This document shows, one piece after another, positions 3,239-28,105 of a DNA stretch of 28,105 nt; within the stretch, counting starts at the first letter, position 1; each line of letters starts with the position of its first letter. The position numbers were made by a program, and so were the translations under genes. The stretch is from a virus. The stretch is taken from IMG/VR virus record IMGVR_UViG_3300024475_000024, positions 1-28,105 of that record, one strand, 5' to 3'. Below the pieces are notes generated by a model. It worked only from the letters and a program-made list of their open reading frames with translations. It made no database searches and was not told the DNA's origin.

Positions 3239-3561
3239 TACTTTTCTCTCACTTTAAGTTTGATGCTACGCTCTGCAATATTGCCTGTATTGTCAGAGAT
3301 TTGACAAAAGAGTGTATACTGTACATTATTTGTTCCATCAGCTAAGAAAATAGTAGCTGTCTTATTGTCACTACTAATAGTTTGTGCAGTACTACGTAGA
3401 GTATTGACTGTTCCAGTAGGAGAGATAACAGTTTTTATACCACTAGCATTATTAACAGACCATACAACACTACTAATAGTGCCTGCACCAAGAAACCTTG
3501 ACCAGTCTACACTATAATCTAGTACTTCATCTGGGTCTTTGTTAGGCCAACGAAAAGACAT
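3238..3561 (-). CDS. Small conserved phage structural protein
   Basis: The product is 107 residues and begins MSFRWPNKDPDEVLDYSVDW. The rest reads as alternating beta strands (ISSVVWSVNNASG, TATIFLADGTNNVQYTLFCQI, ERSIKLKVREK), the look of one immunoglobulin-like or fibre-attachment domain. Proteins with this opening recur in marine phages, as far as I recall, without a known function. It sits between the repeat protein at 3571-4695 and the adaptor gene and overlaps the adaptor start by one base. An AGGAG-type ribosome site lies before its ATG. A virion role is inferred from the neighbourhood. Confidence 0.7.
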   Translation of the reverse strand: MSFRWPNKDPDEVLDYSVDWSRFLGAGTISSVVWSVNNASGIKTVISPTGTVNTLRSTAQTISSDNKTATIFLADGTNNVQYTLFCQISDNTGNIAERSIKLKVREK

Positions 3562-25598: not shown

Positions 25599-25717
25599 TA
25601 CTTATTCCAGTCCAGTACAGTCCGGTGCTTCTTCCAGAACCAATTACCAATACGAGTAAAGGGCTTTCCAATAGCAAGTAAAGTCATACCTAAATAATAC
25701 ACACAAGTTTTACGCAT
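25598..25717 (-). CDS. Very short membrane-associated protein
   Basis: I choose the ATG at 25717, which overlaps the end of the HNH-like gene by eight bases. It gives a 39-residue peptide MRKTCVYYLGMTLLAIGKPF followed by TRIGNWFWKKHRTVLDWNK. It has a hydrophobic, aromatic stretch and a basic Trp-rich end, suiting a small membrane-surface peptide. Short proteins with GNWFWKKH-like ends are known from other marine phages, as far as I recall. A longer reading upstream would run inside the HNH-like coding region and looks spurious. Function unknown. Confidence 0.55.
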   Translation of the reverse strand: MRKTCVYYLGMTLLAIGKPFTRIGNWFWKKHRTVLDWNK

Positions 25718-26153
25718 AGGGATTACGTTTGCCAGCAGTTTTTGTGCGTGGGTAAGAACGGTTTTGACTAGCTGTTTTAGTTGTGAGATTACCAGCACGA
25801 TTATCCTTTGGATTTCCATTTTTATGTGCAACATCTTTTCCTGTAATATTTTGACCATTATTTTTCGCTATCCTACGTGCCGCATTTCTACTAGCACGAT
25901 TTTGTTTCTGTTCCGAACTGCTATGATAATTAGCATATTCACTGGCATAGTCACGAACTACACCACCTATCGCCATCTTACGCTGGCTTCTGGCTTTCTT
26001 TTTTGCCTTATCCGTTAGATTACCATAATGATACAGCTTCACACTAGTTTTAGTATGTGTTTTATTACTATGTAAGGAACCATCGGGCATTTTATGGTAC
26101 GCACCACTCCAGACAGTTCCATCTCGTGTGTAATGTTTTACACCTTTAGCCAT
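25710..26153 (-). CDS. HNH-like endonuclease domain fused to a phage N-terminal domain
   Basis: The 147-residue protein has an N-terminal part (1-55) beginning MAKGVKHYTRDGTVWSGAYH. A basic linker follows, then a C-terminal HNH-like domain (about 80-135): ASRNAARRIAK, then GKDVAHKNGNPKDNRAGNL with His110, Asn118 and Asn122, and TASQNRS with Asn131. This is the core of free-standing phage HNH nucleases, in which the leading Asp-His is replaced by Ala-His. It may nick DNA, for example in packaging, mobility or host-DNA attack, or may be a degenerate domain used for binding. The start overlaps the previous stop by one base. Confidence 0.7.
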   Translation of the reverse strand: MAKGVKHYTRDGTVWSGAYHKMPDGSLHSNKTHTKTSVKLYHYGNLTDKAKKKARSQRKMAIGGVVRDYASEYANYHSSSEQKQNRASRNAARRIAKNNGQNITGKDVAHKNGNPKDNRAGNLTTKTASQNRSYPRTKTAGKRNPYA

Positions 26154-26803: not shown

Positions 26804-27018
26804 GTCTTCAATCCTTCTGGTATTGTAAGTGGTAGTTGAGTTGTCAGGCACGTAGCTGACCAGTCTACTATTTCTCCACTAGCTATTCTAGGTCTATGCA
26901 TCTCACGTACAATCTCTAAAGTAGGACATTCAACTACATTACGTGCGTAAGACTTTAGTTCTCCATCCGGCAGTACGATCACGGAGAAGAATACAAAAAA
27001 GGTATAAAGTTCCATCAC
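26800..27018 (-). CDS. Small protein with hydrophobic N-terminus and Cys pair
   Basis: The 72-residue product begins with a hydrophobic segment (LYTFFVFFSVIVL) that looks like a signal anchor. A polar body with NVVECPTLEIVREMHRPRI and WSATCLTTQLPL follows. The two cysteines lie 25 residues apart, as in the peptide at 24675-24854 (26). The start is GTG at 27018, overlapping the previous stop as GTGA, or the ATG one codon later; AAGGA serves either. It is probably membrane-tethered with its Cys pair outside. Function unknown. Confidence 0.6.
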   Translation of the reverse strand: MMELYTFFVFFSVIVLPDGELKSYARNVVECPTLEIVREMHRPRIASGEIVDWSATCLTTQLPLTIPEGLKT

Positions 27019-27236
27019 TCATTTCCTTCACTCCACCCTTCTAAACGCATATAATCCTCTGTCTCTTTTAGAGTAAAGGTACGTGGGGTAAACTTAGCCT
27101 CCAATGCACTGCGCACGTAGAATACGTCACTGTGAGGAATATGAAGACGGTCTAATGAATTGGTACGGATGGCATCATAGAATGCATCAAGTACATTATC
27201 TGTGTATAGTTTTACGGATTTCTTTGTCAATGTCAA
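27015..27236 (-). CDS. Small conserved protein, first gene of the leftward operon
   Basis: The 73-residue product reads KKSVKLYTDNVLDAFYDAIR, LDRLHIPHSDVFYVRSALEA and KETEDYMRLEGWSEGNE, a compact helical protein. The only in-frame starts are TTG at 27236 or TTG at 27230; there is no ATG before the body and only weak ribosome-site similarity. Those TTG codons coincide with TTGACA boxes of a candidate promoter, so the exact N-terminus is uncertain. It overlaps the next gene by four bases. It is the first gene downstream of the strong promoter at 27403-27431. Function unknown. Confidence 0.6.
   Translation of the reverse strand: MTLTKKSVKLYTDNVLDAFYDAIRTNSLDRLHIPHSDVFYVRSALEAKFTPRTFTLKETEDYMRLEGWSEGNE
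27203..27236 (-). promoter_or_regulatory. Third match to the phage promoter motif
   Basis: TTGACA (27231-27236), 16 bases, TAAAAC (27209-27214), then TATACA (27203-27208) on the minus strand share the GTAWAACTATA block and the exact spacing of the capsid and hub promoters. However, it falls inside the first codons of the 27015-27236 gene, so it is either an internal promoter or a chance match. Confidence 0.4.
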
Positions 27237-27260: not shown

Positions 27261-27383
27261 ATATCACTTATGTGTTAGTTAAGTGTACAGTTAAGTGTAT
27301 TAACAAAGAAAATGTAATAGTAGTTAAGTGTACATATAAGTGTTATTATAGTTTTATTAAGGAACAGTTAAGTGTATCACTTA
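27261..27383. repeat. Phased TAAGTG repeat cluster (operator- or iteron-like)
   Basis: TAAGTG occurs at 27280, 27292, 27325, 27337 and 27369, and inverted (CACTTA) at 27265 and 27378. Four copies share a longer core GTTAAGTGTA (27278, 27290, 27323, 27367). Within groups the copies are 12 bases apart; groups start 45 and 44 bases apart. The last forms a dyad, TAAGTG-TAT-CACTTA (27369-27383). A further near-match in the opposite orientation lies at 27991-28000. The cluster is just downstream of the consensus promoter, so binding by a repressor or activator is the likeliest role. A replication origin with iterons is the alternative. Confidence 0.7.
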
Positions 27384-27402
27384 TATGTTCTAGTTATATA
27401 TA

Positions 27403-27431
27403 ATTATACCAGATTTTGTCAAGCCTGTCAA
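27403..27431 (-). promoter_or_regulatory. Full-consensus sigma70-type promoter for the leftward operon
   Basis: On the minus strand TTGACA (27426-27431) is separated by exactly 17 bases from TATAAT (27403-27408), a complete match to the bacterial consensus. A second TTGACA (27417-27422) lies inside the spacer. The start site would be near 27396, giving a leader of about 160 bases that contains the TAAGTG repeats before the first gene. Confidence 0.85.
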
Positions 27432-27722
27432 TACACATTATTTGTCTGGTACTACTCTTTTTTATTTTATGGGTCCAGATTAGATGTAATCACCGCAACT
27501 GGTCCCTATGCCCCTATAAATATGCCTATTTTTTAGGCAACTGTGCAATACTTGTGCATATATGTATGTCAGTTACCCTTGTGGTTAACAGTCAATTTCC
27601 CTGATCTGTGTATTTCTGTGTATATACGTACTACGGGTACGGGGGTGGCTCCTGCCCTAACCCCTTGAAATGACAGTATTTTCTATCTGCCAGCGAAAAA
27701 AAGCATATTTTCTGCCAGTTTC

Positions 27723-27800: not shown

Positions 27801-28105
27801 ACCCAACAAAGAAAAAAGCCAGTGTTTTCAAAAACATAGACCCATATCAAGTGGCGGTGCATATACTACCACCCCAACAAAAGCAGCCCATACTTATATA
27901 ATATAAATAAAAAAATCACTAACTCATTGAAAACAAACAATAAACCAAAAAAGTGAATCGAACCTGAATTTTTATTTATCAACAAAAACAATCACTTAAC
28001 TTTTAACTTACTGAAATCATTGATGAAATTAATTGTTTACTTATCCGATAAAAAAGATTAGTCTTTAAAAATCGAAGCAAGGCAAACAGCCAAGCCAAGA
28101 TAGAC

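Follow-up and report, generated by a model that had tools for sequence, protein, structure and literature searches.

Palindromic sites behind the late promoter of HMO-2011-type marine podoviruses: a probable operator array

Introduction

Which function may be assigned to a tight cluster of short repeats that is located directly downstream of a perfect sigma-70 promoter at the head of a viral late operon? The question was raised by a virus record of 28,105 bases, analyzed here in its full length and called the window, in which all main genes are on the minus strand. An earlier note on this DNA had described the cluster as a phased TAAGTG array and had suggested either a cooperative operator that switches the late operon or an iteron-type origin of replication.

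The TerL protein encoded in the window showed 90% identity to its counterpart in Puniceispirillum phage HMO-2011 and 83 to 84% identity to those in the RCA phages CRP-1 and CRP-345, and HMO-2011 could be aligned with the final 1.7 kb of the window. Judged from these similarities, the window represents the late arm, read leftward, of a marine podovirus of the HMO-2011 type. An HNH endonuclease-like gene was located within its structural operon at positions 25710 to 26153. Phages of the HMO-2011 type have been described as a dominant group with a broad distribution in the ocean (PMC9038755). In the genome papers on this group that were consulted, the original HMO-2011 description not among them, the word “promoter” is absent, so that the array and the gene timing appear to be undescribed there.

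Results

The late promoter and the cluster downstream of it

The promoter, which had been claimed to be perfect, agreed with the consensus at all 12 positions (Table 1) and was the single 12/12 match on the minus strand of the window. A promoter of the TTGAC-N-TATAAT type was present at the same position in 73 of 78 leaders, the window included, and some of the leaders without it were cut contigs. The late promoter of HMO-2011 was likewise a perfect TTGACA-N17-TATAAT. The transcription start was estimated to be at position 27396, which is the basis of the + numbering of the sites.

Seven sites between positions 27387 and 27265 followed downstream of the promoter. The hexamer TAAGTG was present in five copies on the plus strand (27280, 27292, 27325, 27337, and 27369) and in two on the minus strand (27265 and 27378), in agreement with the five direct and two inverted copies counted before, and the distances of 12 bases within the groups and of 45 and 44 bases between them were also confirmed. 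The promoter-proximal dyad, proposed at +13 to +27, was found close to this position, at about +14 to +28 when counted from the estimated start. The 10-mer GTTAAGTGTA occurred in four exact copies in the 28-kb window, all of them inside the array and none in the rest of the window. In 2000 random 3-kb sequences with the local dinucleotide content, the maximum of TAAGTG/CACTTA per 120 bp was 4, reached once, compared to the 7 copies observed in 119 bp, and GTTAAGTGTA was found once in 43 samples and never more often, compared to the four copies observed. This indicates that several copies of one sequence are clustered at the promoter above the level expected by chance.

Looping to an inverted near-copy at position 27991, a further idea of the earlier note, found no support, because matches with two mismatches numbered 36 in the window versus 44.7 expected by chance and position 27991 was not conserved in the relatives. 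The repeats in the window may also be read as TTAA-N8-TTAA. A CtrA site, TTAA-N7-TTAA, was rejected as an explanation since it contains a seven-base spacer, while the spacer was N8 in the window and the centers were 12 to 15 bp apart in the relatives.

Table 1. Features of the late promoter region in the window
Feature	Position	Strand	Remarks
Sigma-70 consensus promoter, TTGACA-N17-TATAAT, extended −10 TG	27403..27431	−	12/12 match; first hexamer from 27431, second hexamer ending at 27403; reads leftward into the late/structural operon
Conserved palindrome TGCCTAAAAAATAGGCA, terminator-like, upstream of the promoter	27523..27539	−	GCCTA-N4-7-TAGGC in 23 of 39 non-redundant leaders
Operator doublet 1	27365..27387	−	Predicted sites CATATAAGTG (27387-27378) and CACTTAACTG (27374-27365)
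Operator doublet 2	27321..27342	−	Predicted sites CACTTATATG (27342-27333) and CACTTAACTA (27330-27321)
Operator group 3	27265..27297	−	Predicted sites CACTTAACTG (27297-27288), CACTTAACTA (27285-27276), and CACATAAGTG (27274-27265)
First late-operon gene	27015..27236	−	Open reading frame, 73 codons from TTG at 27236 (71 from TTG at 27230); candidate autoregulator

Repeat unit and spacing in related leaders

A search with the first late gene yielded 80 related loci, which were reduced to 39 non-redundant leaders (class A) by removal of near-duplicates. The motif CANT-N2-ANTG was present in these leaders in 72 copies versus 2.5 in shuffled sequences and CANT-N3-ANTG in 66 versus 2.4, giving a total of 138 copies where about 5 were expected. 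The other spacers tested, from 0 to 8 bases, were at the chance level or below, with the exception of N8 (8 versus 2.5). As deduced from this comparison, the repeat unit is the palindrome CANT-N2/3-ANTG, mostly arranged in doublets. The array as such was thereby retained, while the palindrome displaced the direct TAAGTG repeat as its unit.

Most N3 sites were symmetric, CACT-NNN-AGTG, with no clear orientation bias; most N2 sites were CACTTAA[A/C]TG, and these were oriented with transcription in a ratio of 53:2. The distances between the site centers were concentrated at 12 to 15, 32 to 36, 44 to 48, and 58 to 64 bp with almost none in between, which corresponds to a layout mainly of doublets with centers 12 to 15 bp apart that are repeated every 46 to 48 bp or so. 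In 20 of the 39 relatives, a distance of 28 nt separated the first base of TATAAT from the center of the first site. Repeats and phasing were thus kept in related phages. In the complete genome of HMO-2011, the strict pattern formed clusters at two places only, the late leader and a repeat within the coding sequence of a structural gene, and the clustering was alike in CRP-1. Distinct from the palindromes, an element TTCTTTG[CT]TAA or similar was situated between site groups 2 and 3 (about 27300 to 27310 in the window) in 28 of the 39 class A leaders.

Site words of other branches

With the first-gene homologues of CRP-13 and CRP-603 as queries, 160 further loci were obtained. Dyad symmetry was again present, with other words: leaders of class B, the CRP-9/13 branch, contained TACT-N3-AGTA (65 versus 1.6 expected), and those of class C, the CRP-2/603 branch, palindromes of the AACATTAATGTT type. 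A class D group (L331, L343, and L329) used the word AGTTAAACT. The counts per leader separated the classes, and the class words were largely without crossover; some leaders of the B and C sets matched none of the three words. The position of the array was kept across the branches while the site word differed.

Sites were also found at other promoters. In 8 of 14 leaders of the CRP-2 branch and its neighbors, the spacer between the −35 and −10 motifs of a second promoter contained either the palindrome or AGTTAAACT, and such a spacer is a classic position for a repressor. CRP-13 possessed a second TACT-N3-AGTA array at 3426 to 3523, behind a promoter-like sequence and ahead of an early gene or operon, and the late end of the cobavirus CRP-5 contained three TACT-N2/3-AGTA sites, upstream of the late genes.

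Candidates for the cognate factor

CRP-1, CRP-2, CRP-9, and CRP-13 were all isolated on one strain, FZCC0023, yet their site words differ. The cognate factor is therefore probably phage-encoded, and a host-encoded factor was rejected on the same grounds. A search for such a DNA-binding protein by protein family covered ten late proteins encoded in the window and 20 proteins, mostly early ones, of HMO-2011 and CRP-1, and none of these was assignable as a repressor. Comparison of gene content with the motif classes removed several candidates. The DUF932 protein gp08 was present in 10 of 10 class A records tested, but G027 with its class D leader had it as well; the tyrosine integrase was absent from the class B records, which nevertheless have arrays; the L5-gp82-like gp02 was patchy in class A; and HTH_39 (PF14090) was found only in class C-like phages and two cobaviruses, being absent from the tested records of classes A and B.

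The product of the first late gene, 73 to 85 amino acids long, may be the factor and control its own operon, a refinement that we regard as rather unlikely on the present evidence. A homologue of this gene directly followed the leader in HMO-2011, CRP-1, 345, 2, 603, 207, 9, and 13, and it was present in every motif class, always as the first gene after the leader. The loci G027 (L331) and G029 (L343) are informative here as a case of natural recombination. G027 has an A-like early module with an HMO-like DNA polymerase (67%) and a DUF932 gene, and in G029 the early module is C-like, the polymerase is less closely related (56%), and the DUF932 gene is missing; their leaders were 95% alike with the same site word, and their first-gene proteins were near-identical. 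The site word therefore follows the late module, in which the first gene lies, although co-inheritance of neighboring genes would be expected anyway. Against the first-gene product stand also CRP-5, with B-like sites but no recognizable first-gene homologue, and the predicted fold. The window protein had no match in Pfam or PHROGs, and the model of the first-gene product consisted of four short helices in a small helical fold without a ribbon (pLDDT 86, pTM 0.72), which gave no convincing match in the PDB and none to a known DNA-binding protein. A ribbon-helix-helix protein, a further guess for this product, was discarded since the model was helical with no beta-ribbon. In the window, a TTG start at position 27230 takes the place where the relatives have ATG.

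Discussion

We consider it probable that the cluster is a multi-site operator array through which a DNA-binding protein of the phage regulates the late operon. For an operator array at this promoter, good support comes from the palindromy of the sites and from the position, the promoter, and the site spacing, which dozens of relatives have in common. From the observed sites, their palindromy, spacing, and conservation, and the class words, we infer protein binding, repression, cooperativity, and timing; of the cooperative operator switching the late operon that had been suggested before, the operator array at the late promoter thus stands, while “cooperative” and “switch” belong to the presumed part. 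A phage-encoded protein, probably dimeric, would bind to up to seven ten-base palindromic sites that are located at about +9 to +132 of the leader transcribed from a strong host-type late promoter. Occupied sites would stop RNA polymerase at promoter escape or in early elongation, so that the structural genes stay silent at early times of infection or during lysogeny, and release of the sites would lead to late expression. Most likely, the regulator would repress late transcription or serve as its timing switch. Such a repressor may plausibly have a role in lysogeny since many phages of the HMO-2011 group carry an integrase (PMC9038755) and CRP-3 integrates into the tRNA-Met gene of its host (PMC6918029), and HMO-2011-type phages may be partly temperate. 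The tyrosine integrase gp09 of HMO-2011 (L090, 5377 to 6255) has MDLRRT instead of the usual HDLRRT, and its catalytic histidine looks replaced. Two features fit the operator explanation less well: in the window no site overlaps the promoter core, the first one being at about +9, and the 53:2 bias of the N2 sites is not explained by a purely symmetric dimer site.

This bias and the location of the sites within the transcribed leader would also agree with an action of the repeats in the leader RNA, by antitermination, attenuation, or an RNA-binding protein, and lambda-like late control, which operates through the leader downstream of a constitutive promoter, provides a precedent. An N2 site, however, would form a hairpin with a loop of two bases, many of the halves mismatch (CACT/AATG), the leader folded only slightly better than shuffled sequences (z, −1.6), and it had no match in Rfam. 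The class C palindrome is also present in the spacer of the second promoter, upstream of that start, and such features of the branches fit DNA operators better than RNA elements. An RNA function is thus quite unlikely.

Even less probable is an iteron-type replication origin. The array is AT-rich (GC content, 0.25) and about 1 kb from the minimum of the cumulative G-C curve of HMO-2011 at 54249, but the skew follows gene direction and does not discriminate an origin. The sites are positioned relative to, and downstream of, a conserved promoter, they are short palindromes in doublets, the second array of CRP-13 precedes another operon, and no initiator gene was recognized beside the array among the flanking genes examined, in a window that ends 674 bp upstream of the promoter. 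These points weigh, if weakly, against the origin that the earlier note had offered as an alternative. Recognition sites for terminase or packaging near the genome end would agree with the location of the array in the terminal 1 to 2 kb of several linear records and with cobavirus ICBM2, where a related stretch located upstream borders on the direct terminal repeat. The annotated repeat of ICBM2 (40749 to 40907) is, however, separated by about 500 bp from the first late gene, which lies downstream of it and ends at 40241, the site words differ between phages with 60 to 90% identical TerL proteins, and packaging needs no promoter-anchored layout, which makes this explanation the most improbable one.

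Relation to known systems

Operators of the lambda OL/OR type are palindromes that lie close together at a strong promoter of the host type. The array resembles them in its clustered palindromes at such a promoter and in the class C site between −35 and −10; unlike them, it is located at the late operon and consists of six or seven short sites, all of them beyond the transcription start, and no CI-like protein was found among the proteins examined. The Omega/ParB(pSM19035) arrays consist of contiguous WATCACW heptads (PMC9499535). Short half-sites about 6 to 7 bp apart, in alternating orientation and near promoters, are a common property, but the doublets of the array are about 32 to 34 bp apart from center to center, no partition genes were seen, and the adjoining small protein has no predicted beta-ribbon.

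The stoperators of Cluster A mycobacteriophages, bound by proteins of the L5 gp71 type, are asymmetric sites of 13 to 14 bp that are distributed genome-wide and bound by a monomer (PMC9283540, PMC6550527), and repression from them depends on orientation (PMC9283540). The array shares with them the many sites in transcribed regions and the divergence of site words between related phages, which parallels that of immunity specificities, and the orientation bias of its N2 sites, though not its N3 sites, recalls theirs. Its sites are nevertheless palindromes of about 10 bp in one tight cluster, the single non-coding one in HMO-2011, and no L5-type repressor was found among the proteins examined. 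Because stoperator sites are asymmetric and scattered, membership in this group is not claimed.

As a direct handle, the late-promoter array predicts a regulator, a transcription start, and a lytic/lysogenic switch, and the site classes may predict phages that exclude each other. It is conceivable, though doubtful, that the array represents a direction-sensitive, promoter-downstream type used by a new family of small regulators, with site words that radiated into immunity-like classes among phages sharing a host. If true, this family would control the late operon of a dominant marine phage group, and the word classes would correspond to immunity groups.

Further elements upstream of the late promoter

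Palindromes of the TTTGTGATCACAAA type were present in the right-end non-coding region of CRP-1 (L086), CRP-345 (L089), CRP-603 (L087), and CRP-2 (L092) and may form another family of operator-like sites ahead of the late promoter in the RCA phages. At positions 27580 to 27665 of the window, a conserved block GTTAACCAC...ACAGATCAG...TACGTATATACACAG adjoined a G/C-rich run. This block, which is possibly an origin, a terminus, or a rightward promoter region, was retained in HMO-2011, CRP-1, 345, 2, and 603, and in the cobavirus ICBM2 a G-rich stretch was located at the direct terminal repeat.
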